Below are positions 27,026 through 43,383 of a stretch of 64,000 nucleotides of DNA, in pieces; position 1 is the first letter of the stretch, and each line of letters starts with the position of its first letter. The notes beneath the pieces were generated by a model, which searched no databases, was not told where the DNA came from, and was given only the letters and a program-made list of their open reading frames with translations. Source of the stretch: Thiothrix unzii (GTDB taxonomy: Bacteria > Pseudomonadota > Gammaproteobacteria > Thiotrichales > Thiotrichaceae); the NCBI RefSeq assembly GCF_017901175.1, contig NZ_CP072793.1:1798001-1862000 (forward strand), read 5' to 3'. A program made the position numbers and the translations under genes.

Positions 27026-28012
27026 TTACCCCCCGGTCATCGACATAAACCGCAACACCTGCGTTTGCGTTTGGTTGAAGTTATGCTCCAGCGGCTTCAG
27101 CCACAACGCCTTGCGGATCACTCCTTGCAACGCCACATCGCTAATCCCCGCCCGCAATAACGGACGCAATGCCACGCTATGTTCCTGCCCCAAACACAAA
27201 TACAACGTGCCATCCACACCCAGCCGCACACGGTTACAGGTAGCACAAAAATGCTGCGAAATCGGCGTAATAAACCCAATCTTCAACCCCGTATCACCGA
27301 TGGTGTAATACTGTGCCGGGCCACCGCCCTCCATGATCGACGGCAACAAATTGTAGTGTTCCGCCAACCTTGCTTTAACCGTTTGCAGGCTCAGGTAATA
27401 CGAATCGCGGGCATTGCGCCCCGTTTCACCCATCGGCATGGTCTCAATAAAACGCAAGGTGAAGCGGTGTTCCAGACAGAATTCCACCATATCCAGCACT
27501 TCGTCGTCGTTAATGCCCTGCATCACCACCATATTGATTTTGATTGGGGCAAATCCGGCGGCTTTCGCCGCCATCAAGCCTGCCATGACTTTATCCAGCT
27601 TGCCTTTGGTAATGCGTTGAAAGCGTTTGGGTTGCAGGCTATCGAGACTGACATTGAGACGGGAAACGCCTGCCTGTTTGAGTGCCACCGCCTCCTGCGC
27701 GAGACGATTGGCATTGGTACTGAGGGATAAATCGGTAATACCGGGTAATGCTGCCAGCCGCGTCGCCAGTTCAGGCAAACCATTCCGTACCAAAGGTTCA
27801 CCACCCGTCAAGCGCAACCGACTCACGCCCAAGGCGGCAAACGCTGCCGTGACCCGCTCAATTTCATCAAAACTCAGCCAGTGATCCGGCACGGTATAAT
27901 CGTTGAAGTGTTCGGGCATACAGTAAAAACACCGCAGGTCACAGCGATCCGTCACCGATACCCGCAAGTAGCTAATTTCACGCCCAAACGGGTCAATCAA
28001 TCCATTACCCAT
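27026..28012 (-). CDS. moaA: GTP 3',8-cyclase MoaA (molybdenum cofactor)
   Basis: A 328-residue radical-SAM enzyme that converts GTP to 3',8-cyclo-GTP in molybdopterin synthesis. Visible motifs: the SAM cluster DRCDLRCFYCMPE (CxxxCxxC), LRLTGGEP, the second 4Fe-4S cluster CATCNRVRLGVDGTLYLC, and a C-terminal double-Gly end (SMTGG). The start ATG 28012 (MGNGLIDPFGREISYLR) has GAGGTGG upstream; earlier in-frame starts fall in the terminator stem of the leader. It is the last gene after narGHJI and a PpiC isomerase, the same order as in Pseudomonas nar operons, where it supplies cofactor for NarG. A terminator-type attenuator precedes it. Confidence 0.92.
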   Translation of the reverse strand: MGNGLIDPFGREISYLRVSVTDRCDLRCFYCMPEHFNDYTVPDHWLSFDEIERVTAAFAALGVSRLRLTGGEPLVRNGLPELATRLAALPGITDLSLSTNANRLAQEAVALKQAGVSRLNVSLDSLQPKRFQRITKGKLDKVMAGLMAAKAAGFAPIKINMVVMQGINDDEVLDMVEFCLEHRFTLRFIETMPMGETGRNARDSYYLSLQTVKARLAEHYNLLPSIMEGGGPAQYYTIGDTGLKIGFITPISQHFCATCNRVRLGVDGTLYLCLGQEHSVALRPLLRAGISDVALQGVIRKALWLKPLEHNFNQTQTQVLRFMSMTGG

Positions 28013-28028
28013 ACACCACCTCATGAAG

Positions 28029-28057
28029 AAAAAAACGGGCGATATTGCTACCGCCCG
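28029..28057 (-). terminator. Intrinsic terminator directly upstream of moaA
   Basis: On the minus strand CGGGCG and CGCCCG form a stem around a 10-nt loop, followed by a run of seven U. It ends about 17 nt before the moaA start codon and after the PpiC gene. In this place it must either be read through or be regulated. Confidence 0.8.
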
Positions 28058-28110
28058 CACCCCCGGTCAGTGGCTTACATCCGACCGGTTTCGGAGGGTC
28101 TGTGAAAAAC
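28058..28110 (-). promoter_or_regulatory. Structured leader/attenuator candidate for moaA
   Basis: Between the PpiC stop and the terminator, two mutually exclusive pairings are visible on the minus strand. One is a hairpin UCCGA-AACCGG-UCGGA (28080-28095). The other pairs CCGGUC with GACCGG (28063-28068 with 28083-28088), extended by ACCC with GGGU (28059-28062 with 28096-28099). Followed by an intrinsic terminator and moaA, this is the layout of an attenuator or riboswitch. I cannot match it to the classical Moco RNA with confidence. Confidence 0.5.
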
Positions 28111-28923
28111 TTACTGCACCAGTGGTGAACCCGCAGCATTGAAGGCAATCCCCTCAACACCAATTTCCACACCCAATACCTGCAAGTATTGGCTCAACGC
28201 CCGCCGCGTCACCTGCTCATGCAAATACTGACGGATGCGCGTTGCCACATGCTCATATTCCAACGGCTCGCCTTCCACACGCTGATCCACCCGCACCAGA
28301 TGAAAACCAAAGCGCGTTTCCACTGGCTGCGTGCAAAGCCCCACAGGAAGCAACCACACTTGGCGCTCAAATTCCGCCACGGTTTGCCCTTTCGACAACT
28401 GCCCCAAACTGCCGCCCTGCCCCGACGATGGGCAAGCCGAATACTGCTGCGCCAGTGCCACAAAGCTATCCGCATCAGCTTGCAACTGCCGCAGCAATTG
28501 CGCCGCAAGCTGGCGTTGTTGATCACGTTGCAAAGTGTCATCCGGCGCGGCGGGCAGCAAAATATGACTCACTGCCAGCAATACCGGCGTTTGAAAGCGT
28601 TGCCGATTACTCTGAAAATAGTGAAGACACTGCGCCTCTGTTGGATCAGGTACTTGCATATCCCTTTCCAACAACAGGGCAGTGCGTTCTTCTTCACTAG
28701 CGGCTTCGATACCCAGTTGTGCAGCGCGTTGTTCCAGCAAGGTTTTCACCACCAAGCTGGTTGCCGCTGCCTGCCATGCTTCATCCAATTGTGCAGCGGG
28801 GTGGTATTGCAACTCTTCCGCAATCGCCTCCTCCGTCAGCACTTGATCACCAACGCGAACTTCTTGCTCCCTCACCCCTTGCGGGGGAGGGTTGGGATGG
28901 GGGGTATACGTTCCAACTTCCAT
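28111..28923 (-). CDS. PpiC/NifM-type peptidyl-prolyl isomerase of the nar operon
   Basis: A 270-residue protein. A parvulin domain occupies about residues 125-225 (VSHILLPA, FVALAQQYSACPSSGQGGSLGQLSKGQTVAEFERQVWLLPVG, TRFGFHLVRVD). There is an N-terminal helical segment and no signal peptide, so it acts in the cytoplasm, probably in nitrate reductase maturation. The order narI-ppiC-moaA matches Pseudomonas. The first residues (TYTPHPNPPPQGVREQ) are not family-like and come from a dispersed repeat (28867-28904). The true start might be downstream, but the frame is open and the ATG at 28923 is only 3 bp from narI. Confidence 0.82.
   Translation of the reverse strand: MEVGTYTPHPNPPPQGVREQEVRVGDQVLTEEAIAEELQYHPAAQLDEAWQAAATSLVVKTLLEQRAAQLGIEAASEEERTALLLERDMQVPDPTEAQCLHYFQSNRQRFQTPVLLAVSHILLPAAPDDTLQRDQQRQLAAQLLRQLQADADSFVALAQQYSACPSSGQGGSLGQLSKGQTVAEFERQVWLLPVGLCTQPVETRFGFHLVRVDQRVEGEPLEYEHVATRIRQYLHEQVTRRALSQYLQVLGVEIGVEGIAFNAAGSPLVQ
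28867..28904 (+). repeat. Dispersed G/C-rich repeat, copy 2 (inside ppiC 5' end)
   Basis: CTCCCTCACCCCTTGCGGGG followed by a GAGGGTTGGGATGGGGGG tail matches copies 1 and 3. Read on the minus strand it supplies the PHPNPPPQG-like N-terminal residues of the isomerase. Confidence 0.75.
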
Positions 28924-28926
28924 AAA

Positions 28927-29604
28927 TTACCCCCGCGCCCGCACGATTTGATACTGACGATTCACGTATTGCACCGGCACACTCCAGATATGCACCAAGC
29001 GCGTAAACGGGAACAGCAGGAACACGGTCAAGCCCAGCAAAATGTGCAGCTTAAAGATAAAGCCCACATCCGCCAGATGCGCCGCCGCACCGCCTTTAAA
29101 GAACACAATGGATTGCGCCCATTCCGCCAATTTCAGCATATTGCTGCCATCCAGATGCCCCAAGGTCGGAATGATGGTTAGTAAACCCAGCGTCACTTGC
29201 ACCAACAAAATGGCAATCACTGCCAAGTCCATCGTCGAGCCAGTAGCGCGTACCCGTGGATCATTCTTACGGCGCAAAAACAGCAGCAATGCGCCATACC
29301 AGCAAGCCACACCGGCAATACCGCCAACGATAATCGCCATGACTTGCTTCGTGCCAGCCGACATAAACGGCTCATACAACCAATGCGGAGTCAGCAAACC
29401 GACTAAATGCCCGAAGAAAATCACCAGAATGCCCACATGGAATAAATTACTCGCCAGGCACATTCCGCTGTTGCTCAACATCTGGCTAGACCCTGCCCGC
29501 CACGTATATTGCGCTTGGTCGTAACGCAGCCAACTGCCAATCAGAAACACCGCCCCTGCCACGTAGGGGTACAGCCCAAAGAAAAGTGAATCAAAGTAAG
29601 ACAT
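28927..29604 (-). CDS. narI: Respiratory nitrate reductase gamma subunit NarI
   Basis: A 225-residue membrane cytochrome b subunit with five membrane segments that passes quinol electrons to NarH. NarI-type features: the N-terminal FFGLYPYVAGAVFLIGSWLRY, the haem-ligand histidines in SNLFHVGILVIFFGHLVG, and later HLADVGFIFKLHILLGLTVFLLFPFTRLVHIWS. The start ATG 29604 directly follows the NarJ stop (1 bp apart). A longer frame upstream overlaps NarJ and is not supported. Confidence 0.93.
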   Translation of the reverse strand: MSYFDSLFFGLYPYVAGAVFLIGSWLRYDQAQYTWRAGSSQMLSNSGMCLASNLFHVGILVIFFGHLVGLLTPHWLYEPFMSAGTKQVMAIIVGGIAGVACWYGALLLFLRRKNDPRVRATGSTMDLAVIAILLVQVTLGLLTIIPTLGHLDGSNMLKLAEWAQSIVFFKGGAAAHLADVGFIFKLHILLGLTVFLLFPFTRLVHIWSVPVQYVNRQYQIVRARG

Positions 29605-29605
29605 A

Positions 29606-30289
29606 TCAGTTCTCCCGAAAATGCAGCGTGTGGGTTTGGTTGGTGGATTGGGTGGGTCGGCACGACGCGCCCTTGTCTTCCACAAAGGCGACCATTTCCT
29701 CTTCCCAGACCTTATCCATCGCAGCGGCGGTATCATCGCGGGGTTCAGTTGCCACTTTACCGCGCAATTCCCCCATGTTCGGCTGGATGCCAATCATCGC
29801 CAGCAGCGCATCAAACAACAGGTGGTAATTACTGCCGCGCTCCTGCAAACGTGCCGATAACAGCGCGAGAATGGGGTGAACATCCCCCAGCCCTTGCGCC
29901 GCTTCGGCTTCGCTGCGGGTGGCGAGGTATTCCAGATACAACGGGATGTAATCCGGCAATTCCTTGACACTCAGTTCCAGCCCCGCGTCCCGGTATTGCT
30001 GGAGCAAATCCACCATTGCCTGCCCGCGATCCCGCGATTCGCCGTGAACGTGTTCAAACAGCAGCAAAGACAGCGAACGTCCGCGATCAAACAGCGATAC
30101 GTAATCTTCCTGCGCATCCAACAAATCACCCGTCCCCAGTTGCTGGATAAAAGCGGTCAGGGAATCGCGCAAGCTCTGCGGCAAACGGGTTTCTTCGCGC
30201 ACTACGTCAATCAAGGCACTCCGCGCTTCGATCAGTTCCGCCGTGGGGTAATCCATTAAGCGTGCCAGTACGGCAAAGATCTTAATCAT
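29606..30289 (-). CDS. narJ: Nitrate reductase assembly chaperone NarJ
   Basis: A 227-residue cytoplasmic chaperone of the NarJ/TorD group. It has LARLMDYPTAEL, the YVSLFDRGRSLSLLLFEHVHGESRDRGQAMVDLL block, and LPDYIPLYLEYLA. It inserts the Mo cofactor and delivers NarGH to NarI. It overlaps narH by 4 nt and is followed after 1 bp by narI. The last 20 residues (THTLHFREN region) are variable. Confidence 0.93.
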   Translation of the reverse strand: MIKIFAVLARLMDYPTAELIEARSALIDVVREETRLPQSLRDSLTAFIQQLGTGDLLDAQEDYVSLFDRGRSLSLLLFEHVHGESRDRGQAMVDLLQQYRDAGLELSVKELPDYIPLYLEYLATRSEAEAAQGLGDVHPILALLSARLQERGSNYHLLFDALLAMIGIQPNMGELRGKVATEPRDDTAAAMDKVWEEEMVAFVEDKGASCRPTQSTNQTHTLHFREN

Positions 30290-31839
30290 GACTTGACCTC
30301 CTGCTTCACGAAGTCGATTTTCTGCACCATTGTCACGGTTTGCTTGCGCCCGCCGAACAGGTTGGTTTGGTTCGTGCCCGTGCTAGTGCCGCAACCATCG
30401 CCGAAGCTGAAACCGCAGCCGCCGCGTTCGGGGAAGGCTTCCCGTGCCAGTTCGCGGTGACTGGTGGGGATGACATAACGGTCTTCGTAATTGGCAATCG
30501 CGAGGTAACGGTACATTTCCTTGGCTTGCGCCTCAGACAAACCGACTTGTTCCAAAGCGCGGGTATCGTGGATGCCTTCCACCGTTTCTGCCCGTTTGTA
30601 TTGGCGCATCGCCATCAGGCGTTTGAGAGCCAATTTCACTGGCTCTTCATCGCCCGCTGTCAACAGATTCGCCAAGTAACGCACTGGAATCCGCAAGCTG
30701 TCCACGTCCGGCAATACGCCGTCGTAGCCGATCTTGCCCGCATCCGCCGCCGATTGGATTGGCGACAGTGGCGGCACATACCACACCATCGGCAAGGTAC
30801 GGTATTCGGGGTGCAATGGCAGTGCCAGCTTCCAATCCATCGCCAGCTTCCACACGGGAGACTCTTGAGCAGCTTTCAACACATTGTCAGGAATGCCATC
30901 CTTTTTCGCCTGTTCAATCACTTTCGGGTCAAACGGGTCGAGGAATACTTCCAACTGCTTTTGGTACAAATCCTTTTCATTCGGGGTGCTGGCGGCGGCT
31001 TCAATCTGATCCGCGTCATACAGCAAGATACCGAGGTAACGGATACGCCCCACACAGGTTTCCGAACACACCGTCGGCATCCCCGCTTCAATGCGTGGGT
31101 AGCAGAAAATGCACTTCTCGGATTTACCGGACTTCCAGTTGTAGTAAATCTTTTTGTAAGGACAGCCACTCACGCACATGCGCCAGCCCCGGCATTTGTC
31201 TTGGTCGATCAACACAATGCCGTCTTCGTCGCGCTTGTAAATTGCACCGCTGGGGCAAGACGCGACACACGCCGGATTCAAGCAGTGTTCGCACAAACGT
31301 GGCAGGGTAAACATAAAGGTGTTTTCAAATTCACCGTAAATGTCCGCCTGAATCTGGTCGAAGTTTTTATCCTTGCGGCGTTTGGAAAATTCCGTGCCGA
31401 GGATTTCTTCCCAGTTTGGCCCCCATTCGATCTTGTCCATGCGCTGCCCAGAAATCAGCGAGCGCGGGCGTGCCACTGGCTGATGCTTGCTATCCGGCGC
31501 GTTGTGCAAGTGTTGGTAATCGAAATCGAACGGCTCGTAATAGTCGTCAATCGCGGGTAAATCGGGGTTGGCAAAAATATTCGCCAATACCCGAAACCGC
31601 CCGCCGATGCGCGGCTCAATCTTGCCATCGGCGCGGCGTAACCAGCCGCCTTTCCACTTTTCCTGATTCTCCCACTCTTTGGGATAGCCGATGCCGGGTT
31701 TGGTTTCGACATTGTTGAACCACGCATATTCCATGCCTTCGCGTGAAGTCCAGACGTTTTTGCAAGTAATCGAGCAGGTATGGCAGCCGATGCACTTGTC
31801 TAAATTCAGCACCATGCCGACTTGGGAACGGATTTTCAT
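30286..31839 (-). CDS. narH: Respiratory nitrate reductase beta subunit NarH
   Basis: A 517-residue iron-sulfur subunit. Four cysteine clusters are visible: LDKCIGCHTCSITCKNVW, LCEHCLNPACVASCPSGAIY, DKCRGWRMCVSGCPYKKIYYN and KCIFCYPRIEAG. The third has Trp in place of one Cys, the usual NarH 3Fe-4S signature. It transfers electrons from NarI haems to NarG. It overlaps narG and narJ by 4 nt each, so the four subunit genes are translationally coupled. Confidence 0.95.
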   Translation of the reverse strand: MKIRSQVGMVLNLDKCIGCHTCSITCKNVWTSREGMEYAWFNNVETKPGIGYPKEWENQEKWKGGWLRRADGKIEPRIGGRFRVLANIFANPDLPAIDDYYEPFDFDYQHLHNAPDSKHQPVARPRSLISGQRMDKIEWGPNWEEILGTEFSKRRKDKNFDQIQADIYGEFENTFMFTLPRLCEHCLNPACVASCPSGAIYKRDEDGIVLIDQDKCRGWRMCVSGCPYKKIYYNWKSGKSEKCIFCYPRIEAGMPTVCSETCVGRIRYLGILLYDADQIEAAASTPNEKDLYQKQLEVFLDPFDPKVIEQAKKDGIPDNVLKAAQESPVWKLAMDWKLALPLHPEYRTLPMVWYVPPLSPIQSAADAGKIGYDGVLPDVDSLRIPVRYLANLLTAGDEEPVKLALKRLMAMRQYKRAETVEGIHDTRALEQVGLSEAQAKEMYRYLAIANYEDRYVIPTSHRELAREAFPERGGCGFSFGDGCGTSTGTNQTNLFGGRKQTVTMVQKIDFVKQEVKS

Positions 31840-34800
31840 TTTACTGCCTCCTGAATCGTGTCATTACCTTCACCGTCCAGCCAATCGACATTGGTCATCT
31901 TGCGCACAATGACGAATTCATCGCGGTTAGAACCGACCGTGCCGTAGTAGTTGAAGCCGTAAGCCTGTTGCGCGTAACCGCCGATCATGTGCGTCGGTTT
32001 CGGGCAAACGCGGGTAACGGAATTGTGAATGCCGCCGCGTTCGCCGGTAATGGCTGAACCGGGCACGTTCACAATGCGTTCTTGCGCGTGGTACATCATT
32101 ACCATCCCCGGCATGACGCGCTGGCTGACCACTGCCCGCGCTGCGATTGCACCGTTGGCGTTGAACAGGTCTATCCAGTCGTTATCGACAATGCCCAGCT
32201 TTTTAGCATCGTCTTCACTCATCCACACAATCGGCCCACCGCGTGACAGCGTGAGCATCAGCAAGTTGTCGGTGTAGGTGGAATGGATGCCCCATTTTTG
32301 ATGCGGGGTAATCCAGTTCAACGCCAATTCGGGGTTGCCGTTGGACTTTTGGTTGAGCATCGGCTTGATGGTTTTGGTGTTAATCGGCGGGCGATACACC
32401 AACATGCTTTCGCCGAAATCACGCATCCAGTCATGGTCAAGGTAGAACTGTTGCCGCCCCGTCAAAGTACGCCACGGAATCAGCTCGTGAACGTTGGTAT
32501 AACCCGCGTTGTACGACACATGCTCATCCTCCAAACCCGACCAAGTAGGACTGGAAATGATTTTGCGCGGTTGCGCCACGATGTCGCGGAAGCGAATTTT
32601 CTCGTCTTCCTTGTTCAAGGCGAGATGGGTGTGGTCAATGCCAGTAATTTTCGACAAGGCTGCCCACGCTTTCACCGCCACTTGCCCGTTGGTTTCGGGA
32701 GCAAGCGAGAGGATCATTTCCGCCGCATCAATCGCGCTGTTCAGGCACGGACGACCTTCAGTCGTGCCGCTGGTGTGCTGGTGGTTGAGCTTGCCGAGGA
32801 AGGCGACTTCAGTTTCGGTATTCCAGCCGATGCCTTTGCCGCCGTTACCGAGCTTTTCCATCAACGGGCCAATGGACGTAAAGCGAGCATAGGTTTCGGG
32901 GTAATTACGTTCGACGGCAATCATGGCTGGGGCGGTTTTGCCCGGAATCAGGTCGCATTGACCTTTCTTCCAGTCCTTCACACCGAAGGCTTGACCGAGT
33001 TCCGCAGGCGCATCGTGCAACAGTGGCAGTGTCACCAAATCGGTTTCTACGCCCAAATGCCCGACGCAAACCCGTGAGAATTCCTTGGCAATGCCTTTGT
33101 AGATTTCCCAGTCGCTCCGCGCTTCCCATGAGGGGTCAACCGCAGCGGTCAGCGGGTGAATGAACGGGTGCATGTCGGAGGTGTTGAGGTCATCCTTTTC
33201 GTACCAAGTTGCGGTTGGTAGCACGATGTCGGAATACAAGCAGGTGGTGGACATGCGGAAGTCGAGTGTCACCAGCAAATCGAGTTTGCCTTCGGGCGCA
33301 TCTGTATGCCACTTCACTTCTTGCGGTTTCACGCCGCCCATTTCGCCGAGGTCTTTGCCTTGCACGCCGTGCTTTGTACCCAGCAAATACTTGAGCAAGT
33401 ATTCATGCCCTTTGCCCGAAGAACCCAGCAAATTGGAACGCCACACGAACAGGTTGCGCGGGAAGTTTTGCGCGTTGTCGGGGTCTTCCGCCGCAAACGC
33501 GATCTTGCCGGATTTGAGGCTGGCAACGGTGTAATCCGCCGGGCTCATGCCTGCGTCTTTGGCGGCTTGGGCAATGCGCAACGGGTTGGTATTGAGCTGG
33601 GGTGCGGAAGGCAACCAGCCCATGCGTTCTGCCCGCACGTTGTAGTCAATCAAGTTGCCGGATTGACGCGCTTTGTTCGCCAGTGGGGAAAGGATTTCCT
33701 TGATTTCCAGCTTTTCGTAACGCCATTGGCTGGAATGGTTGTAGAAGAACGACGTGCCATTCATTTGCCGTGGCGGACGTGACCAGTCCAGCCCAAACGC
33801 CAGCGGCAACCAGCCGGTCTGCGGACGCAGCTTTTCCTGCCCGACATAATGCGCCCAGCCGCCGCCAGATTGCCCGACGCAGCCGCACATGGCGAGCATA
33901 TTGATCAAGCCACGGTAGTTCATGTCCATGTGATACCAGTGGTTCATGCCCGCGCCGACGATAATCATCGACTTGCCCTTGGTCTTGTCGGCGGTATCGG
34001 CGAATTCACGCGCAATGCGGATCACTTTGTCACGCGGTACGCCGGTAATCGCTTCTTGCCATGCGGGTGTGTACGGCGCATTGGCATCATCGAAGTTTTT
34101 GGCACTGTCATCGTCACCCAAGCCACGGCTGATACCGTAGTTGACCATGTTCAGGTCGTACACCGACACCAACATGCCTTCGCTGCCATCCGCCAAGGTG
34201 ATTTTGCGGGCAGGCAGTTTGTACTTGAGAATGTCTTTGAGCGTATTGCCTTGGAAATAATCACTCGGCACACCGCCAAAATAAGGCAGCGCAACGTCTA
34301 CCACTGCATCGTGACGTTCAACCAAGGACAATGACAGTTTGACCTCTTCGTGGGTTTTGCCATCTTTCTGTTGCAGATTCCACTGCCCGCTACCATCCCA
34401 GCGGTAGCCGATTGAGCCGTTCGGGGAAATGATTTCACCCGTCACGTCGTCAATCGCCACGGTTTTCCAATCCGGGTTTTGCTCTTCACCCAAACCAGAA
34501 ATGAAGTCGCTGGCACGCGCAAAGCGTCCCGCTTGATAGCTGCCATCGTCACGCGCTTCCAGTAATACCAGATTCGGCCAGTCGGTGTAACGGCGCACGT
34601 AATCGGTGAAATAGTCGCTAGGCTTGTCAACGTGGAATTCTTTGAGGATGACGTGCCCAAATGCCATTGCCAACGCCGCATCCGTCCCCTGTTTCGGGTT
34701 CAGCCATTGGTCGGCGTGTTTGGCAACTTCCGCGTAGTCCGGCGTAATCGCCACGGTTTTCGTGCCTTTGTAACGCACTTCGGTAAAGAAATGCGCATCA

Positions 34801-35588
34801 GGGGTACGGGTCTGCGGAACGTTAGAACCCCACGCAATGATGTAGCTGCTGTTGTACCAATCGGCAGATTCCGGCACGTCGGTTTGCTCACCCCACACCA
34901 TCGGTGACGCAGGCGGCAAATCGCAATACCAATCGTAGAAGCTCAAACACACGCCACCAATCAGTGACAGGTAACGGCTTCCCGCCGCATACGACACCAT
35001 CGACATTGCCGGAATCGGAGAGAAACCAATCACGCGGTCTGGGCCATATTGCTTGGCGGTGTACACGTTGGAGGCTGCAATCAGCTCATTCACTTCATCC
35101 CACGAAGAACGCACAAAACCACCCAAACCGCGCCGGGTTTTGTAGGATTGCGCCGTGGTTGGATTTTCAACGATGGATGCCCACGCCGTGACCGGATCAG
35201 GATTTTTCGCTTTGGCAGAACGCCACAATTCCATCAACTGACGGCGCATCAAGGGGTATTTGAGGCGGTTCGCGCTGTACATATACCACGAATAGCTTGC
35301 GCCACGCGGACAGCCACGCGGCTCATGGTTCGGCAAATCCGGGCGGGTACGCGGGTAGTCGGTTTGCTGGGTTTCCCACGTCACCAAGCCGTTTTTCACG
35401 TAGATTTTCCAGCTACACGAACCCGTGCAGTTTACGCCGTGGGTGGAACGTACCACCTTGTCGTGCTGCCAGCGTTTGCGGTAGCCGTCTTCCCAGTCGC
35501 GGCTCTCCTCGGTCATCGCTCCATGCCCGTTGGAAAACGGCGTTTGGGTGCGTTTGAAAAAATTCAGTCGGTCAATAAAGTGGCTCAT
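31836..35588 (-). CDS. narG: Respiratory nitrate reductase alpha subunit NarG
   Basis: A 1250-residue Mo-bisMGD catalytic subunit on the cytoplasmic side. The N-terminal cluster region HGVNCTGSCSWKIYVKNGLV has the His plus Cys ligands of the FS0 cluster, and YPRTRPDLPNHEPRGCPRGASYSWYMYS follows it in the family order. Reduces nitrate to nitrite with quinol electrons, building proton motive force. The start ATG 35588 (MSHFIDRL) has GGGGAG upstream; an in-frame TTG 9 nt earlier is too close to that site. It lies 5 bp after the dsrC-like gene. Length is normal for the family. Confidence 0.95.
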   Translation of the reverse strand: MSHFIDRLNFFKRTQTPFSNGHGAMTEESRDWEDGYRKRWQHDKVVRSTHGVNCTGSCSWKIYVKNGLVTWETQQTDYPRTRPDLPNHEPRGCPRGASYSWYMYSANRLKYPLMRRQLMELWRSAKAKNPDPVTAWASIVENPTTAQSYKTRRGLGGFVRSSWDEVNELIAASNVYTAKQYGPDRVIGFSPIPAMSMVSYAAGSRYLSLIGGVCLSFYDWYCDLPPASPMVWGEQTDVPESADWYNSSYIIAWGSNVPQTRTPDAHFFTEVRYKGTKTVAITPDYAEVAKHADQWLNPKQGTDAALAMAFGHVILKEFHVDKPSDYFTDYVRRYTDWPNLVLLEARDDGSYQAGRFARASDFISGLGEEQNPDWKTVAIDDVTGEIISPNGSIGYRWDGSGQWNLQQKDGKTHEEVKLSLSLVERHDAVVDVALPYFGGVPSDYFQGNTLKDILKYKLPARKITLADGSEGMLVSVYDLNMVNYGISRGLGDDDSAKNFDDANAPYTPAWQEAITGVPRDKVIRIAREFADTADKTKGKSMIIVGAGMNHWYHMDMNYRGLINMLAMCGCVGQSGGGWAHYVGQEKLRPQTGWLPLAFGLDWSRPPRQMNGTSFFYNHSSQWRYEKLEIKEILSPLANKARQSGNLIDYNVRAERMGWLPSAPQLNTNPLRIAQAAKDAGMSPADYTVASLKSGKIAFAAEDPDNAQNFPRNLFVWRSNLLGSSGKGHEYLLKYLLGTKHGVQGKDLGEMGGVKPQEVKWHTDAPEGKLDLLVTLDFRMSTTCLYSDIVLPTATWYEKDDLNTSDMHPFIHPLTAAVDPSWEARSDWEIYKGIAKEFSRVCVGHLGVETDLVTLPLLHDAPAELGQAFGVKDWKKGQCDLIPGKTAPAMIAVERNYPETYARFTSIGPLMEKLGNGGKGIGWNTETEVAFLGKLNHQHTSGTTEGRPCLNSAIDAAEMILSLAPETNGQVAVKAWAALSKITGIDHTHLALNKEDEKIRFRDIVAQPRKIISSPTWSGLEDEHVSYNAGYTNVHELIPWRTLTGRQQFYLDHDWMRDFGESMLVYRPPINTKTIKPMLNQKSNGNPELALNWITPHQKWGIHSTYTDNLLMLTLSRGGPIVWMSEDDAKKLGIVDNDWIDLFNANGAIAARAVVSQRVMPGMVMMYHAQERIVNVPGSAITGERGGIHNSVTRVCPKPTHMIGGYAQQAYGFNYYGTVGSNRDEFVIVRKMTNVDWLDGEGNDTIQEAVK

Positions 35589-35593
35589 AGCAA

Positions 35594-35986
35594 TCAATGC
35601 TCCCCTTTGGTTCTACGGATACCCGCCAAGCGATTGCCCTGCTTCTGCGGGCCGCCTTTAGGGAAAATTTCATGCAGGTAATGGTTGGTAGCGAACTCTT
35701 CACCCCACGCTTGCTTGAAGTGCTTGAGCATGTCGCGCACCGGGGCTTGTACGCCGTGTTCCTGATGGTAGTTACGCAGGAACTCGATGATTTCCCAATG
35801 CTCGTCGGTCAGCACCAAGCCTTCACGTTCGGCGAGGGCTTCCACGAAACCTTCGCTCCAGTCATCCATGTTCTGGATGTAACCTTCCTGATCGGTGAGG
35901 ATTTGCTTGCCATCCACTTCCAACGCCAAGGTATAAATCGCGTAAGGGTTGGTTTGCAGATTGTCGTCATACTGTTGAATTGCCAT
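35594..35986 (-). CDS. Cysteine-free DsrC/TusE-family protein in the nar operon
   Basis: A 130-residue DsrC/TusE-fold protein: DQEGYIQNMDDWSEGFVEALAEREG split over the N-terminal half, LTDEHWEIIEFLRNYHQEHGV, and KHFKQAWGEEFATNHYLHEIFPKGGPQKQGNRLAGI. DsrC has two redox Cys near its C-terminus and TusE one; here the position aligned with the inner Cys is Asn (QGNRLAGI) and the last residues RRTKGEH lack the terminal Cys. The whole protein has no Cys, so it cannot carry sulfur. It fits the RspA-type, regulatory DsrC-like group. It lies between narK2 and narG with 5 bp to narG. ATG 35986 is favoured over ATG 35992, because AGGAG is only 2 nt from the latter. Confidence 0.82.
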   Translation of the reverse strand: MAIQQYDDNLQTNPYAIYTLALEVDGKQILTDQEGYIQNMDDWSEGFVEALAEREGLVLTDEHWEIIEFLRNYHQEHGVQAPVRDMLKHFKQAWGEEFATNHYLHEIFPKGGPQKQGNRLAGIRRTKGEH

Positions 35987-36002: not shown

Positions 36003-37610
36003 TTACGGATTTTTGATTTCGCTGCTGCTACGTAGGTAAAACCACCAGTTCAAAATCAGGCACAGCGCGTAGAAAATCGCAAAGCCATACATGGCGTTTT
36101 GCGGTGTCCCCGCCTTGATCTGGTCGCCGATCACCACCGGTGCAATGAACGAACCGTAGGCGGCAACCGCCGAAGTCCAGCCCAATACTGGCCCCGCTTG
36201 CAGGCGGTCAAAAATCACCCCAACCGTGCGGAAGGTCGAGCCATTGCCCAAACCAGTAGCAGCAAACAGCAACACAAACGTCCACAGGAACGGTTGGAAG
36301 AACACTTCCGGGGTAGCCGATTGGTAAGCCTGCATCATCAGGTAGCCTGCGTAAGCCGATGCGCCAACCATGACGACAGAAATGATTTGGGTAACGATAG
36401 AACCGCCTACCTTGTCAGAAATCCAGCCACCGACTGGGCGGATCAGTGCCCCCACAAACGGCCCAATCCATGCGTAAGCAAACACCGGAATAGCGTTAGG
36501 GTTTTTCGCGTGTACCCATGCTTGGGTTGCCGCATCAAACACATGGGTGTTACCGAAAATGACCTTGATCGCCAACGGCAGCGCCATTGAGAAGCCGATG
36601 AAGGAACCGAAGGTCAGCAGGTACAGTACAGTCATTGACCAAGTGTGTTTATTGTTGAAAATGGCAAACTGCTTGCTGATGTTGGTTTTCATCTCACCAA
36701 AAGCGGCGAGTTTCATGATCATCAAGGTCGCCAGAATAATCAGCGGCAGAGCCACCCACATATTCAGCAAGCCCAGCCCAGTCGGCGCAGGCAGGTAGAG
36801 GTACAAGCCAACGGCGGTAACGGCAAAGGTCAGCCCCCAAAGGAACAGGATTTTGGCAAAAGCCGCCAACGTGCCGCCGATATTGGGTGAAATCGGCATC
36901 AGGTTGTTCATGCCGAAGAAGCCAAAGAATGCTAACGGGATCAGGAACACCAACCAGATATAACCCGCATTCTGGATCCACGTTTCAGTACCGGCCAAGA
37001 TTTTGCCCAGTACCCAACCAGAATCTTTCACCAGCGGCATAGGGTCACCACCCAAGGCACCAAACACGCCCATCGTCATTGCCAATGGGATGAGGATTTG
37101 CATGGTGGTAACACCAAAGTTACCCAAGCCTGCATTCAAACCCAGAGCAGTACCCTGCAAACGCTTGGGGAAAAACGTGCTGATATTGGACATGGAGCAA
37201 GCAAAGTTACCGCCACCAATCCCGGACAAAAATGCCAGAATCTGGAAGGTCAACAGCGGGGTTTCCTTGCTTTGCAACGCAATTCCCGTACCAATGGCAG
37301 GGATCATCAATAGTGCAGTGGTGAGGAAAATGGTATTGCGCCCACCCGCCAGCCGGATGAAGAAAGAGGCAGGTATCCGCAAGGTCGCACCTGCTAACCC
37401 GGCAATCGCCGTCAGCGTGAACAGTTCATCGTCCTTGAAGGGGAAACCAAGGTTGGACATCTGTACAGTGATAATCCCCCACATCATCCAGACGGCGAAA
37501 CCCATCAGCAGGCTAGGGATCGAAATCCACAAATTGCGGTTGGCAATTTTCTTGCCGGTGCTTTCCCAGAACGTGGTGTCTTCCACGTCCCAATTTTTAA
37601 TATCAGTCAT
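36003..37610 (-). CDS. narK2: NarK-type nitrate/nitrite transporter (NarK2-like)
   Basis: A 535-residue MFS protein of the nitrate/nitrite porter family with 12 membrane segments. It has the NNP signatures GGGNFACSMSNISTFFPKRLQGTALGLNAGLGNFGV and, in the second half, GLGNGSTFRTVGVIF. The longer length and the first-half insertion fit the NarK2 branch, typically a nitrate/nitrite antiporter. It follows narK1 after 15 bp and precedes the dsrC-like gene. A pair of NarK proteins before narG is typical of denitrifying Pseudomonas and Paracoccus. Confidence 0.9.
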   Translation of the reverse strand: MTDIKNWDVEDTTFWESTGKKIANRNLWISIPSLLMGFAVWMMWGIITVQMSNLGFPFKDDELFTLTAIAGLAGATLRIPASFFIRLAGGRNTIFLTTALLMIPAIGTGIALQSKETPLLTFQILAFLSGIGGGNFACSMSNISTFFPKRLQGTALGLNAGLGNFGVTTMQILIPLAMTMGVFGALGGDPMPLVKDSGWVLGKILAGTETWIQNAGYIWLVFLIPLAFFGFFGMNNLMPISPNIGGTLAAFAKILFLWGLTFAVTAVGLYLYLPAPTGLGLLNMWVALPLIILATLMIMKLAAFGEMKTNISKQFAIFNNKHTWSMTVLYLLTFGSFIGFSMALPLAIKVIFGNTHVFDAATQAWVHAKNPNAIPVFAYAWIGPFVGALIRPVGGWISDKVGGSIVTQIISVVMVGASAYAGYLMMQAYQSATPEVFFQPFLWTFVLLFAATGLGNGSTFRTVGVIFDRLQAGPVLGWTSAVAAYGSFIAPVVIGDQIKAGTPQNAMYGFAIFYALCLILNWWFYLRSSSEIKNP

Positions 37611-37625
37611 CAGGTATTCCTCGCA

Positions 37626-38882
37626 TTAAAGGTTTGTGGTGAGGGATTTTTCGTGTAAATCGGCATGAACCGGGCGAACTTCGGTGAAATACATCCACAT
37701 CAGCGACACCCACACCACGCCAAACATCAGCATGAAGGCGGAAGAGCGAATGCCAGTGAGATCCACCAATGCGCCAAACATAATCGGCATCAGGAAACCA
37801 CCCAAACCACCCGCCAAGCCCACCACGCCGGATACCACGCCAATGTTGTCGGGGTAGTCATCCGAGATGTACTTGAATACCGAGGCTTTACCGACAGCGA
37901 AGACTACGCCGAGGGTAAACAGGATGATGGTGAAGATGGTCGGGGTCAGCCCGAAGTGAAAAGTTTTTGCCCCGTTCAGGGTTTGAATCGTGATGTCGCT
38001 TTGCGGGTAAGACAGGAAGAACAAGCAAACCAGCGAAACCCACAATACCCACCAGGTCATGGTGTGTGCGCCGAGTTTGTCGGAGAAGTAGCCACCGCCC
38101 GCCCGCAACAAACCGCCGGGAATACTGAATGCGGCTGCCAAGAATGCGGCAGTTTTCAGATCGAAACCGTATTCGCTGACGTAATATTTGGTCATCCACA
38201 AGGCCAGTGCGACGTAGCCACCGAACACGATGGAATAATACTGGCTATAACGCCACACCTTGGGATCTTTGAACGCAGCCAGTTGTTCCCGCACCGTGAC
38301 CGATTTTCCGACCTTGTGGCTAGGCTCGCTAAAGGTGAAAAACCAGAACACAATCGCCGTGACCAGCATCAGCACTGCGTAAACTTGCGGAACCATTGTC
38401 CAGCCATAGCCCACCACAATAATGGGGGCGAGTAATTTGGTGACAGCCGCGCCAGTATTGCCTGCGCCGAAAATCCCCATTGCCAAACCTTGACGTTCCT
38501 TCGGAAACCAGCGGGCGCAATAGGCGATACCGACGGTAAATGAGCCACCCGCTACCCCGACAAACAAGCCGGTTACGAGGAAATGCCAGAATTGGGTTGC
38601 CTGTGAAATCATCCAAATCGGAAATACGGTGGATAGCATCAGGATGGTGAACACGATGCGCCCACCGAATTTATCCGTCCACATCCCTAACGGTACGCGG
38701 ATCAATGAGCCGGTCAGTACCGGTGTTGCGATCAAAATCCCGAACTGGGTTTCGTTCAAACCCAAGGTTGCCTTGATAGGAATCCCGATGACGGCAAACA
38801 TCATCCAGATCATGAAGCACACGGTAAAAGCCAGCGTACTCATGATGACGACCGACCATGCCTTGTATTGCTGCGTTGCCAT
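37626..38882 (-). CDS. narK1: NarK-type nitrate transporter (NarK1-like)
   Basis: A 418-residue MFS nitrate/nitrite porter with 12 segments. It has GVAGGSFTVGIAYCARWFPKERQGLAMGIFGAGNTGAA and the second-half VVGLAGGLGGFLMPIMFG. The shorter form matches the NarK1 branch, usually a proton/nitrate symporter that starts nitrate respiration. AGAGGTG precedes the ATG. It is the first gene of the nar operon, with a NarL-type palindrome 98 bp upstream. Confidence 0.9.
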   Translation of the reverse strand: MATQQYKAWSVVIMSTLAFTVCFMIWMMFAVIGIPIKATLGLNETQFGILIATPVLTGSLIRVPLGMWTDKFGGRIVFTILMLSTVFPIWMISQATQFWHFLVTGLFVGVAGGSFTVGIAYCARWFPKERQGLAMGIFGAGNTGAAVTKLLAPIIVVGYGWTMVPQVYAVLMLVTAIVFWFFTFSEPSHKVGKSVTVREQLAAFKDPKVWRYSQYYSIVFGGYVALALWMTKYYVSEYGFDLKTAAFLAAAFSIPGGLLRAGGGYFSDKLGAHTMTWWVLWVSLVCLFFLSYPQSDITIQTLNGAKTFHFGLTPTIFTIILFTLGVVFAVGKASVFKYISDDYPDNIGVVSGVVGLAGGLGGFLMPIMFGALVDLTGIRSSAFMLMFGVVWVSLMWMYFTEVRPVHADLHEKSLTTNL

Positions 38883-39089: not shown

Positions 39090-39410
39090 CTAATCCACCA
39101 TACCTTGCTGCTCGGCAATTGCCAACACACGCACCAAACCAATAAACGTCAGCCCTAATTTCGCTGCTTGCCGACGCGCTAACTGGTCATCCACGATCAG
39201 CAGGGAGTTTTCATGTTGAATAGCCAGACAAATGGCTTCCTTTTCACCATCACTTAAGCTACGGGGCAAAACCATAGAGGAGATGTCATCACTTGGAATG
39301 ACTTGTAATTGTTTACAATCAATCGCTTGCTGGATGCGCTCGCTATCTTCACCAGACTTAGCCATACATTCCCGTTGCACGTTTTGACTACGAAGCAGGT
39401 GGCATGGCAA
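39090..39410 (-). pseudogene. 5'-truncated PIN-like/DUF3368 toxin remnant
   Basis: The frame encodes the last ~95 residues of a DUF3368 PIN-like protein: ECMAKSGEDSERIQQAID, SLSDGEKEAICLAIQHENSLLIVDDQLARRQAAKLGLTFIGL split over the remainder. The N-terminal third with the first catalytic Asp (a DTSP-like motif) is absent, and sequence upstream belongs to the promoter region of the divergent ATPase gene. No antitoxin gene remains. Most likely a decayed toxin gene. Confidence 0.6.
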
Positions 39411-39472
39411 CTACAGCAACGCTTCGGCGGAAATGCTATGATTGCCCCATGCAGCCACACGCAGGAACACCC

Positions 39473-41161
39473 ATGAAAACTCCCTACGGCGAAAGTAACT
39501 TCAAGAAAGTCATCAGCCAAGGTTTCATCTACATCGACAAAACAGCTTACATCGCTAAGCTGGAGAATCATGGCAGCTACCACTTTCTGTTGCGCCCGCG
39601 CCGTTTCGGTAAAAGCCTGTTCATTTCGATGCTGGAACATTACTACGATGTGCAACGCACGGATGAATTCGCGGCGCTGTTTGGCAAGCTCTACATCGGG
39701 CAGCACCCAACCCCATTAAAAAACACCTATCAGGTGCTGTTCATGGAGTTTAGCGGGATTGAGACAGGTAGCCACGCACAGGTATTTAATGGTTTCAATG
39801 CCAATACCAGCCTGCACTTGCAGGCATTTCTCGAACGCTACGGCTATGGGGATGCCGCAATAGCGGGGTTGGCAAACTACCAAACACCTGCGGACAAGAT
39901 GAAATACGTGTTCACCTTGGCGAATAACCAGAAAATCCTGCTACTGATCGACGAATACGACCACTTTGCCAACGCACTCCTCGCTGAAGACCAAGGCTTG
40001 TTCCAAAGCGTTATGGGCAAAGGTGGGTTCGTGCGTAGTTTTTACGAAACCATCAAAACGGCAACCCAACGCGGCACAGTAGACCGACTGTTCATCACAG
40101 GCGTTACGCCGCTAATGCTTGATAGCCTAACTAGCGGTTTTAACATCGGTAAAAACCTTTCACTACACCACGACTTCAACACCGCAATGGGATTCACCCA
40201 AACCGAAGTCGTTAGCTTGTTACAACCGCTGGTTGAGCAGTGCAAGCTGGATGCTGACGCATTACTCAGTGATATGGCACATTGGTATAACGGCTACCGC
40301 TTTCACTCCAAAGCAACAGAAACCGTCTACAACGCCAACATGGTATTGTATTTCCTTGATAACTTCAGGATGGAGAGTTGTGCCTACCCTGAGCTGATGT
40401 TGGATGACAATATCGCCTCGGATTACCGTAAAATCATGGCGTTATTCCACATCGGCGACCGTGAAGCCAATTATCAAGTGCTGGATGAACTCATCAACGT
40501 AGGCACAGTAACCGCACAACAACAACGTAAGTTTGAACTGGACAAGGATTTCAACCGCGACGCATTCATCAGCTTGCTGGCTTACATGGGGTTTGTGACT
40601 ATTGCAGGGAGTACCCTGACCCAAACGGTATTCGCCATTCCCAACCACGTTATCCGCGAACTATATTTTCAGTATTTCAAGGTCGAACTGGAACGCCGTA
40701 ATCAAATCCGCATTCCTGATCAGGCGGTGCTGCAAGCCATTGAAACGCTGGCTTTGCACGATGACATCCAACCGCTGATCAATGAAATGCAGGGTGTTTT
40801 GCAGCTACTGTCCAACCGTGATTTTGTCAAAATGGATGAAAAACACGTCAAAACGCTCTTACTGACGTTGCTTTACCAATCTCCGGTGTACTTCATCCAG
40901 AGCGAACGTGAAATGAATCAGCGTTACCCCGATATTTTACTGCTGGAACGCAGCCCCTATAGCGTTCCACATCAGCATTTGATCGAACTGAAATACGCGA
41001 AAAAATCTGCCAAAGCTGAAGGTTGGAATGCCAAGCGGCAAGAAGGCATTGAGCAGGTACACGAGTATTTGCAATTACCGACCATTGCGGTGCTTCCCAA
41101 ACTCAGCGCGTGGGTAGTACTCACCAATGGAGAAGATGTCGAGGTCGTGAAAGAAAAGTGA
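39473..41161 (+). CDS. AAA-ATPase-like / DUF1703 PD-(D/E)XK-family protein
   Basis: A 562-residue protein. The N-terminal AAA-ATPase_like part has the typical opening MKTPYGESNFKKVI, FIYIDKTAYIAKLE, the Walker A-like FLLRPRRFGKSL and Walker B-like ILLLIDEYDHFAN. The C-terminal DUF1703 nuclease-like part has a PDILLLE...HQHLIELKYAKKS block, a plausible PD-(D/E)XK core. The start ATG 39473 has AGGAA upstream; the longer frame upstream has no support. This family is often multi-copy in filamentous bacteria and Bacteroides; its function is unknown and a role in conflict or genome maintenance is speculation. It stands alone. Confidence 0.8.
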   Translation: MKTPYGESNFKKVISQGFIYIDKTAYIAKLENHGSYHFLLRPRRFGKSLFISMLEHYYDVQRTDEFAALFGKLYIGQHPTPLKNTYQVLFMEFSGIETGSHAQVFNGFNANTSLHLQAFLERYGYGDAAIAGLANYQTPADKMKYVFTLANNQKILLLIDEYDHFANALLAEDQGLFQSVMGKGGFVRSFYETIKTATQRGTVDRLFITGVTPLMLDSLTSGFNIGKNLSLHHDFNTAMGFTQTEVVSLLQPLVEQCKLDADALLSDMAHWYNGYRFHSKATETVYNANMVLYFLDNFRMESCAYPELMLDDNIASDYRKIMALFHIGDREANYQVLDELINVGTVTAQQQRKFELDKDFNRDAFISLLAYMGFVTIAGSTLTQTVFAIPNHVIRELYFQYFKVELERRNQIRIPDQAVLQAIETLALHDDIQPLINEMQGVLQLLSNRDFVKMDEKHVKTLLLTLLYQSPVYFIQSEREMNQRYPDILLLERSPYSVPHQHLIELKYAKKSAKAEGWNAKRQEGIEQVHEYLQLPTIAVLPKLSAWVVLTNGEDVEVVKEK

Positions 41162-41238: not shown

Positions 41239-43272
41239 TCAGTCTTCAGCAGCCTTGTACTGCGCCATCAGCGCTTGCTGGGTCTTTTCCGTGGTCGGCT
41301 CATAGTGACTGAACTGGATAACCCAGCTACCTTCGCCGCCCGTCAGCGAATTCAGGCGCGAGGCGTAATCGTCCAGTTCCGCCAGCGGGATTTTGGCCTG
41401 AATAACCATATTGCCTGCTGCATCAGCTTGCGCATCATGAATCTGCGCCCGCCGGGTTGCCAGATCGCCAGAAATGTCACCCATTGCAGTGGCGGGAACG
41501 GTTACTTCCAAATCAACCAGCGGCTCCAGAATAATGGGGCTGGCGTCGGCAACGGCTTGCATAAAGGCTTTGCGCCCAGCCACCACGAAGGCAATTTCCT
41601 TGGAATCCACCGAGTGCATCTTGCCATCCAGCAATGTTACCCGGAGATCCATCAGCGGATGCCCGCTAATCACCCCTGATGCCAATAACTGACGTACCCC
41701 TTTTTCCACCGCCGGGATCAATGAGCCAGAAATCGCCCCACCCACAATGCGGTTGACGAATTCAAAGCCCGCACCACGTTCCAGTGGCTCTACCTCAAGC
41801 TGCACTTCGCCAAACTGCCCCGCACCGCCACTTTGCTTTTTGTGGCGATATTGCGCCTGCACCGACTTGGTAATGGTTTCACGATACGGAATCCGGGGTG
41901 GGGCTGCATCCACTTCGACGTGATACTGCTTGTCCATGCGTTCCAGCGCGATACGTAGATGCAAATCGCCTAAACCACGCAACACCGTTTCATTGGCGGC
42001 TGTATCGTATTCAATACGCAAACAGGGGTCTTCAGCGACCAGTTTGTGCAACACATCTGACAGCTTTTGTTCATCGCCGCGTTTTTTGGCACGCAGGGCA
42101 AAACCCACCAGTGGCGTAGGCAAGGTCATCCCGGATATTTCGATGCCATCATCTTCATGGCGTTCGTGCAAAATGGTGTCTGGCTCAATCTCGCTGATTT
42201 TGGCAACAGCACAAATATCGCCCGCGACCGCCTGCTGAACAGGAATGCGTTCTTTGCCCTGCAAGCGATACAAATGGGCAATCTTGACGGGTTTGCCTTC
42301 AGCACCCACTAGCACCTGACTGCCCAGTTTCAGGCTGCCCTGATGTACCCGCAGCAAAGCCAGCTTGCCCACAAACGGGTCGAATTCGACATGGAAAACA
42401 TGCGCCAGCAATGGCTTATCTGCGTCAGGAACTGCCCATGTTTCCACGGTTTTCTCGCCTTGATGACGGATAAAGGGGTGCGGCGTAGCTTCCAACGGGT
42501 TGGGGGCAAGTTTGGCGATAATATCCAACAGTTCAGGGATGCCAGCGCCAGTTCGCGCAGACGTGAAGCAAACGGGCACCAGATGATTTTCACGCAAAGC
42601 CTGTTCAAACGCTTCATGCAATTCAGCCGCAGGTACAGTACCTTCTTCTAGATAATGTTCCATAGCAGATTCATTTGCTTCCACCACCTGCTCGATCAAA
42701 GCAGTATGGGCTGCCGCTACCGAAGAAAAATCCGCCGCGCCGGATTCATGGTCATACACTTCCACCACTTGCGCCGCGTGGTTGACGGGCAACTCCAGCG
42801 GCAGGCATTCGCGACCAAACACCTCGGTAATTTCCTGAAGGCACTTTTCCAGCTTGTCGGGTGCGGCATCAATGCGGTTGACCACGACCATGCACGGCAA
42901 ATGCTGCTGGCTTGCCCACTCCATGATTTTGCGGCTCATGGGTTCAATACCTGCCACGGCATTAATCACTACCACCACCGTATCAGCGGCTGACAACGCC
43001 GTCAGCACCTGCCCCTGAAAATCAGGGTATCCCGGTGTGTCGATCAGATTGATATGGCAACCGGCATGGTGGGCAGTAGCAACAGAAATATACAAGGAAT
43101 GTTGATGTTGTTGTTCAAGCGGATCACAGTCAGTGACGGTATTGCCTTTTTCAATAACGCCTTGTTGGGTGGTTTCGCCTGCCTGAAACAGCAGGGCTTC
43201 GATCAGGCTGGTCTTGCCTGCGCCTGTATGTCCGGTAAAGACAATATTTCGGATGTCTTGGATGGTATGCAC
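41239..43272 (-). CDS. EF-G-like translational GTPase
   Basis: A 677-residue GTPase of the EF-G-like branch (FusA2-type), shorter than canonical EF-G. G-motifs: GHTGAGKTSL (G1), LIDTPGYPDF (G3) and VVNRIDA (G4, NRID instead of NKxD). Domains II-V follow with RGLGDLHLRIALERM and KKQSGGAGQFGEVQLEVEPL. The GTG start at 43272 has AAAAGGAG 5 nt upstream; an ATG further upstream is less suitable. The true role of these paralogues is not settled. It is divergent from narX, separated by a 215-bp region that contains the NarL-type site B. Confidence 0.82.
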   Translation of the reverse strand: MHTIQDIRNIVFTGHTGAGKTSLIEALLFQAGETTQQGVIEKGNTVTDCDPLEQQHQHSLYISVATAHHAGCHINLIDTPGYPDFQGQVLTALSAADTVVVVINAVAGIEPMSRKIMEWASQQHLPCMVVVNRIDAAPDKLEKCLQEITEVFGRECLPLELPVNHAAQVVEVYDHESGAADFSSVAAAHTALIEQVVEANESAMEHYLEEGTVPAAELHEAFEQALRENHLVPVCFTSARTGAGIPELLDIIAKLAPNPLEATPHPFIRHQGEKTVETWAVPDADKPLLAHVFHVEFDPFVGKLALLRVHQGSLKLGSQVLVGAEGKPVKIAHLYRLQGKERIPVQQAVAGDICAVAKISEIEPDTILHERHEDDGIEISGMTLPTPLVGFALRAKKRGDEQKLSDVLHKLVAEDPCLRIEYDTAANETVLRGLGDLHLRIALERMDKQYHVEVDAAPPRIPYRETITKSVQAQYRHKKQSGGAGQFGEVQLEVEPLERGAGFEFVNRIVGGAISGSLIPAVEKGVRQLLASGVISGHPLMDLRVTLLDGKMHSVDSKEIAFVVAGRKAFMQAVADASPIILEPLVDLEVTVPATAMGDISGDLATRRAQIHDAQADAAGNMVIQAKIPLAELDDYASRLNSLTGGEGSWVIQFSHYEPTTEKTQQALMAQYKAAED

Positions 43273-43383
43273 GCTGACTCCTTTTAAAATAAGTTTTCCA
43301 CCCATTCTACGCCGTAGAGCGTCAGCTTGTCTGACCTATATCACGTAAACAAACCACTCGCGACGTATGATCAAGCAAGTGAC

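Follow-up and report, generated by a model that had tools for sequence, protein, structure and literature searches.

A cysteine-free subfamily of DsrC relatives, encoded mostly with nitrate genes in dsrA-bearing genomes

Nitrate-driven sulfur oxidation joins two major element cycles, and it brings with it the issue of running a siroheme sulfite reductase and a nitrite-making enzyme in one cytoplasm. In the 64,000-nucleotide stretch of the Thiothrix unzii genome analysed here (the window), a nar operon contains a gene of the DsrC family, termed Dx in the following, whose product is free of Cys. What could a DsrC-like protein do in such an operon once its sulfur-handling residues are gone? Being tied to both pathways, with these residues gone and its C-terminal arm strongly conserved, Dx is a single testable candidate for cross-talk; its role is perhaps that of coordinating nitrate use with sulfur oxidation.

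The Dx gene, its protein and its operon

The open reading frame list gives a frame of 132 aa (35992-35594, minus strand), in which the second ATG, at 35986, the start taken in the original prediction, is better spaced from an AGGAG than the first. The protein matched the Pfam family PF04358, DsrC (113 bits, E 1.2e-32, cut-off 24.9), and TIGR03342 (101 bits, cut-off 53.5) and has zero Cys, in line with the original prediction of a Cys-free DsrC homologue. An AlphaFold2 model calculated from a 20-row alignment reached a mean pLDDT of 89.8 and a pTM of 0.83, and all eight matches (8/8) obtained by Foldseek in the PDB at E<=0.001 were DsrC/TusE-family chains, the best being A. vinosum DsrC (1yx3; 40% identity in the Foldseek alignment). 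The well conserved fold that had been expected was recovered in this model, in which the DsrC fold is retained, and by curated scores and fold the protein is a member of the DsrC/TusE superfamily. In the alignment, the inner Cys of DsrC corresponds to Asn118, as had been noted originally, and the penultimate, sulfur-binding Cys to Glu129. The arm contains a one-residue insertion relative to DsrC, Gly111, and ends in a Glu-His tip; the frame F-P, P, K-Q, G, G is common to both proteins. With both C-terminal Cys replaced, Dx is not DsrC proper, and it is not a TusE either, as the penultimate Cys is absent and the TusE equivalog score of 86 bits lies below the cut-off of 191. The gene and its surroundings in the window are as follows:

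35594-35986, minus strand: Dx, dsrC-family gene without Cys (PF04358 113 bits; TIGR03342 101 bits; zero Cys; tree clade 100/98)
35597-35665, minus strand: codons of the C-terminal arm, residues 108-130 (FPKGGPQKQGNRLAGIRRTKGEH; arm conservation 0.91; motif in 43/43 copies)
35600-35608, minus strand: AAAGGGGAG, Shine-Dalgarno-like site for narG within the last Dx codons, read from sequence
31836-35585, minus strand: narG (TIGR01580 2315 bits, cut-off 1084)
30286-31839, minus strand: narH (PF13247, PF14711)
29606-30289, minus strand: narJ (PF02613)
28927-29604, minus strand: narI, start picked by eye (PF02665)
28111-28923, minus strand: ppiC-type rotamase gene, start uncertain (PF00639)
27026-28060, minus strand: moaA-like gene, named by eye (ORF list only)
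36003-37610, minus strand: narK-type transporter gene, immediately upstream of Dx (TIGR00886 265 bits, cut-off of 312 not reached)
37626-38882, minus strand: second narK-type transporter gene (TIGR00886 201 bits, cut-off of 312 not reached)
43488-45365, plus strand: narX/narQ-like sensor kinase gene (NarQ 394 bits, NarX 392 bits, each under its own cut-off)
45361-46005, plus strand: narL response regulator gene (PRK10651 302 bits, cut-off 250)

The operon reads narK, narK, Dx, narG, narH, narJ, narI, ppiC, with the narX-like and narL genes upstream in the opposite direction; narXL also flanks the Dx operon at most Thiothrix loci. The narG ATG lies 5 nt downstream of the Dx stop, exactly the spacing originally given, and in Thiothrix the AAAGGGGAG site is encoded by K-G-E codons of Dx. 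Between the narK genes and narX, the window also holds an AAA-ATPase_like/PDDEXK_9 gene (39404-41161), which had no visible counterpart at the corresponding position of this genome's other nar operon (L009). An EF-G-like protein gene (41239-43305), perhaps an extra elongation factor G paralogue, adjoins the nar region. Seven PF04358 genes were found in the T. unzii genome:

L001: canonical DsrC gene, adjoining dsrM- and dsrK-like genes (dsrM and dsrK named by eye)
L002: Cys-free gene with the end RKGGY, near dsr genes
L003: Dx of the window, before narG
L004: near copy of Dx, before narG in the second nar operon
L005: third Dx copy, directly after nirB-nirD-Mo734-FeS629
L006: DsrC-family gene with the end PTGCV
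L007: divergent DsrC-family gene

Nitrate genes accompany all three Dx copies (3/3). Between the two nar operons, the narXL, narK and narK proteins are 94-100% identical, the Dx proteins 99% and the NarG proteins 58%; an excerpt of PMC8570282 describes two Thiothrix NarGHI types of <60% identity, both present in T. unzii. Conservation of Dx is not due to chance, because the window gene and the second nar-linked copy differ by a dN of 0.008 versus a dS of 0.41 (dN/dS about 0.02). A CBS-domain-like gene (by eye; L009:1462-3394) adjoins the second nar operon and is interrupted by a Mutator-type transposase with a nearly identical counterpart in the window (54754-55974). At L010:2375-9711, nirB-nirD stand with genes for a 734-aa NasC/Fdh-like Mo protein and a 629-aa DmsB-DmsC fusion, which may together be a quinol-linked nitrate reductase; no NCBIfam equivalog scored over cut-off, and the 629-aa protein had matches of >600 bits in 44/120 genomes searched. 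The RKGGY gene near the dsr cluster has a Cas6-type gene (L008:10477-11214) immediately upstream.

The Dx subfamily and its arm

A profile made from the three Dx copies of T. unzii was searched against 369 genomes of the class. It gave 23 matches of 151-295 bits in 21 genomes, the next match scoring 109 bits. Named records added 19 further loci, from Thiothrix, Marithrix, Thiodiazotropha, Sedimenticola, Thiohalomonas denitrificans, a Rhodocyclaceae MAG, a Hydrogenophilaceae MAG and others, which may overlap in species with the 21 genomes of the class sample. The arm motif FPxG[GD]PQKQGNRxAGxxxxxGE[HV], near-invariantly FPxGGPQKQGNRxAGxxxxxGEH, occurred in 43/43 Dx rows and in 0/46 other DsrC-family rows, and the tip residues were Glu in 43/43 copies and His in 42/43. 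No arm Cys was found in the 43 rows searched, and 4/43 have one Cys in the DsrC body. Over 30 non-redundant Dx rows, mean column conservation was 0.91 in the arm and 0.70 in the body; the arm is the most conserved part of Dx, including copies without narG behind them.

Phylogenetic analysis of 86/89 rows (duplicates removed) recovered, on few columns, Dx as monophyletic (support 100/98; 100/96 with the arm removed) and as sister to the RKGGY clade (98/94; 96/83 with the arm removed). The sister position recurred with 97/91 in a second tree, which comprised 18/43 Dx rows, with the long branches L007, L115 and L122 left out. For comparison, 42 sequences were taken from 55 non-Dx DsrC-family matches in 9 genomes, 13 low-scoring ones being left out. 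The RKGGY clade (L002, L098, L099, L101-L104, L107, L108, L119) has a Cys-free arm and is encoded near dsrA in several Dsr genomes. The T. lacustris Dx copy, L021:10001-10300, has an in-frame deletion of ~31 residues (draft assembly), and the proteins L093 and L094 consist of two tandem DsrC-like domains. A plasmid or phage origin of Dx was considered and rejected: matches came from 15 plasmid and 6 phage records, all at <60% identity, and the annotated ones were TusE, the remaining places being without annotation. Cys-free DsrC relatives are a known kind; among the literature matches listed, in so far as their text was available, we found no description of the Dx subfamily or of a DsrC-family gene in nar operons, and an earlier mention is possible. 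'DsrC/TusE' annotations of sulfur-oxidiser genomes and transcriptomes blend carriers and non-carriers.

Gene contexts and co-occurrence with Dsr

Contexts were read using a simple ORF caller and BLAST to proteins of the window and of the own genome, a procedure under which high-GC loci may hide genes. Dx lies in narGHJI operons in 26/43 rows (some contigs with part of the operon only), before narG in Thiothrix and after narI elsewhere, one Thiothrix record having both. Seven rows (7/43) have nirBD, the NasC/Fdh-like Mo protein and the fused DmsB-DmsC protein, of which only the last is visible at L079, at a contig start. One copy (L031; 1/43) adjoins genes that were assigned by eye to nitrate uptake and PP2C-kinase, and another (L025; 1/43) follows ppiC at a contig end. 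In 5/43 rows (L071, L077, L080, L081, L082), Dx carries a fused N-terminal domain of about 95 aa, for which Pfam gave nothing over cut-offs (DUF4198 at E 0.03; two of five pieces searched) and the PDB no sequence match up to E 5 (one of five pieces searched). One fused copy adjoins an NsrR-like gene (under the curated cut-off), with NnrS 2 kb away, and three adjoin LysR-type genes (one by Pfam, two by eye). Beside the copies L026, L063 and L076 (3/43), no nitrate genes were seen, L026 and L076 being at contig ends. A genus search found Dx in 11/16 genomes, with nitrate genes adjoining 14/14 copies; some of these genomes are of species already among the named Dx loci.

Scored as TIGR02064 over cut-off, dsrA was present in 35/40 Dx genomes, and 4 more had dsrA fragments of 65-307 bits, giving a total of 39/40; the sole Dx genome without dsrA, G186, is an assembly of 81% completeness, and a congener of it is dsrA+. 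Within the class sample, 20/21 Dx genomes had dsrA versus 99/348 others (Fisher 7e-10, with genomes treated as independent and 7 genomes with fragments over 100 bits only included in the dsrA+ counts). Dx occurred in 10/28 dsrA+ narG+ genomes, being absent from 18/28, and in 0/33 dsrA- narG+ genomes, and 11/21 Dx genomes of the class sample had no narG over cut-off. For Dx, the Dsr link is stronger than the NarG link. For the 629-aa enzyme, the search covered G186 and the 119 dsrA+ genomes; narG or this enzyme was present in 19/21 Dx genomes versus 49/99 others (p 5e-4; 120 genomes, again taken as independent), and the Dx genomes with neither were G290 and G309 (2/21).

Among 299 genomes of the phylum, the window's own included, we obtained two additional Dx genomes, G615 and G639, both dsrA+. 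In G639, Dx follows narI. In G615, the search for narG yielded nothing over cut-off, the partial matches reaching at most 29 bits, and it is the dsr operon that contains Dx, within a longer open frame of uncertain start. Its neighbours there are a dsrN-like gene (CbiA/GATase_3) on one side and, on the other, an IscA-like candidate for dsrR (PF01521, 25.3 bits, under the cut-off of 26.3). Genes taken to be dsrE, F, C, M, K, L and J share its strand; of these, dsrC was assigned by BLAST, K and L, like N, by Pfam domains, and the rest by eye. The link between sulfur oxidation and nitrate respiration that had been predicted is supported in that Dx is nearly confined to genomes with dsrA and most of its copies stand in clusters of nitrate genes.

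The survey of nar operons proposed with the original prediction was carried out on narG neighbourhoods of dsrA+ narG+ genomes (20 regions plus earlier loci; distance limit 4 kb). A DsrC-family gene lay <=4 kb from narG in 15/28 dsrA+ versus 0/33 dsrA- narG+ genomes (Fisher 5e-7, genomes taken as independent) and, counted by family, as was done for this test only, in 12/22 versus 0/24 (p 2e-5). At five dsrA- loci (L174, L180, L181, L189, L195) and one dsrA+ locus (L151), <1 kb was shown downstream of narG; without these six, the counts were 15/27 versus 0/28. With G270 and G318, whose congeners are dsrA+, also removed, the dsrA- count was 0/26 (p 4e-6) and the count by family 12/22 versus 0/20 (p 7e-5).

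The 15 genomes comprise 8 with Dx and 7 with a second type, nar1C, which has the tail ...FPYGYVKQACKIAGMRRPRAWSTG and ends in KQACKIAGMRRPRAWSTG or KQACKIAGMRKPLKLMLD, with small variants. In the second tree, nar1C forms a clade of its own (99/94); it has retained the inner Cys and lost the penultimate one. All nar-linked DsrC relatives of the sample (15/15) therefore lack the sulfur-binding position, since it is the penultimate Cys that binds sulfur in A. vinosum DsrC (PMC3397948, excerpt). The original prediction was to fall if nar-linked relatives had Cys at the arm positions: it stands for Dx (0/43 copies) and gives way in part for nar1C, which keeps the inner Cys and is nar-linked in 7/28 dsrA+ narG+ genomes. 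G080 has the nar1C type in a nirBD cluster and a fused Dx elsewhere. A clade with the inner arm Cys only and the tail WSTG or LMLD (L145, L148, L152, L154, L160-L162, L097, L100) is nar- or nirBD-linked in several dsrA+ genomes.

Possible functions and comparison with known systems

From the sequence, clade, arm conservation, selection, gene contexts and dsrA co-occurrence of Dx, we infer docking, a docking partner and a physiological sense. Tentatively, and at somewhat below an even chance, we regard Dx as a DsrC paralogue that has diverged and been retained as a mimic without carrier function, which would dock on a Dsr partner when cytoplasmic nitrite forms. This reading is favoured because the arm frame is kept, both Cys are replaced, Dx is nearly restricted to dsrA+ genomes and its neighbours make nitrite. 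NarG makes nitrite in the cytoplasm, and Mo734 presumably does the same. Dx would be made together with such enzymes, its arm would dock in a DsrC-used site on a Dsr partner (DsrAB first, then DsrMK), and docked Dx would hold back or shield sulfur oxidation while nitrite or NO is present. According to an excerpt of PMC3397948, the active region of DsrC is its flexible C-terminus and its binding to DsrEFH requires the penultimate Cys; DsrEFH is therefore a less likely partner of Dx. The co-occurrence with dsrA, the Dx in the dsr operon of G615, two nar-linked clades without the penultimate Cys, the arm conservation and the NsrR-like and NnrS neighbours all suggest a mimic. In its favour, too, DsrAB sirohemes are described as partly surface exposed, to meet DsrC, and nitrite reduction as a side reaction of many sulfite reductases (PMC10229431, excerpt). 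Against it, the restriction to dsrA+ genomes may reflect origin from DsrC there and spread within the guild. Dx is dispensable, because 18/28 dsrA+ narG+ genomes are without it and 13/28 without a DsrC-family gene found near narG; both narG and the 629-aa enzyme are absent from 2/21 Dx genomes, and G615 has Dx without narG. The Gly111 insertion could alter arm docking, and the target of the arm may lie outside the Dsr proteins. In a more specific form of the mimic, which we consider rather unlikely, Dx would be a nitrite/NO shield of the reverse-acting sulfite reductase: the arm would enter the DsrAB channel, the Glu-His tip would cap the siroheme, nitrite would be excluded and there would be no DsrC thiol to nitrosate, non-carrying mimics having been recruited into nar operons at least twice (Dx, nar1C). 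DsrAB sirohemes are described as partly surface exposed, to meet DsrC, and nitrite reduction as a side reaction of many sulfite reductases (PMC10229431, excerpt).

A close rival, standing just behind the mimic as a possible reading, is an RspA-type regulator, that is, a Cys-independent DsrC-family protein that would bind DNA or a regulator and tune nar and/or dsr transcription by sulfur/nitrate state. Cys-free DsrC homologues are a known type, A. vinosum DsrC is reported to bind DNA, and the sister group of Dx is likewise Cys-free and has its genes near dsrA. The DsrC core has a LexA-type HTH likeness, with a sub-threshold PF01726 match in the own DsrC and weak Foldseek matches to LexA, and an excerpt of PMC7787665 mentions a putative function of DsrC in transcription regulation. 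However, the Dx gene has an internal or terminal place in its operons, with narXL flanking them in the window and at most Thiothrix loci, the most conserved region of the protein is the arm and not the helix-turn-helix part, and the protein is on average not basic (core pI mean 6.6, range 5.2-9.2).

The other explanations fare worse. An accessory or maturation factor for membrane-linked, cytoplasm-facing nitrate reductases would suit the 26/43 copies in nar operons, the 7 with the nirBD/Mo734/629-aa cluster and the translational coupling to narG that is likely in Thiothrix. It is nevertheless improbable: Dx does not generally accompany narG (0/33 dsrA- loci; 11/21 Dx genomes without narG over cut-off), no DsrC-family gene at all was found at these 33 loci, and 18/28 dsrA+ narG+ genomes lack Dx. 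Of the structural role originally suggested, a form specific to NarG is unlikely, since Dx accompanies NarG proteins of two types (58% identical) as well as another Mo enzyme and is present in G615, where narG is not over cut-off; for the same reasons, a NarG-specific subunit or chaperone was rejected as the main reading. We give very little credit to the idea that arm conservation is a by-product of the narG Shine-Dalgarno site or of recent common descent, the protein being functionless. The AAAGGGGAG site does arise from K-G-E codons in Thiothrix and the T. lacustris copy has its deletion, but G-E-H persists where Dx is the last gene of the operon or stands in another context, and dN/dS is low; tail conservation outside narG contexts led us to reject the ribosome-site explanation. 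Just as improbable is a redox or sulfur carrier like DsrC/TusE that would use other residues: the DsrC fold would allow it, but the window Dx is without Cys, arm Cys occurs in 0/43 copies and the TusE score stays far below its cut-off.

Dx resembles DsrC (PDB 1yx3, 1sau, 2v4j chain C) in fold, in the body residues EGY, W, HW, R, VR and K and in the arm frame; unlike DsrC, it has Asn and Glu for the arm Cys, an extra arm Gly and a Glu-His tip, and it is encoded mostly with nitrate genes. With TusE, the tRNA 2-thiouridine relay protein, it shares the family TIGR03342, whereas it lacks the single penultimate Cys and scores 86 bits against the cut-off of 191. Venceslau and colleagues (2014) reportedly named Cys-free DsrC homologues RspA, 'regulatory sulfur-related protein'. 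As a Cys-free DsrC superfamily member of sulfur bacteria, Dx agrees with this type by sequence; for regulation or DNA binding, there are weak HTH-like hints only. Phage-borne DsrC-like proteins, 5 with neither Cys motif and 112 with the second only according to an excerpt of PMC8190135, likewise belong to the DsrC family minus one or both Cys; unlike Dx, they are on phage contigs, and they are set beside it by description only. The sister RKGGY clade also lacks arm Cys but differs in its arm end and in lying near dsr, not nar. The nar1C clade is, like Dx, a nar-linked branch of the DsrC family in dsrA+ genomes that has lost the penultimate Cys, and unlike Dx, it has kept the inner Cys and forms a clade of its own.
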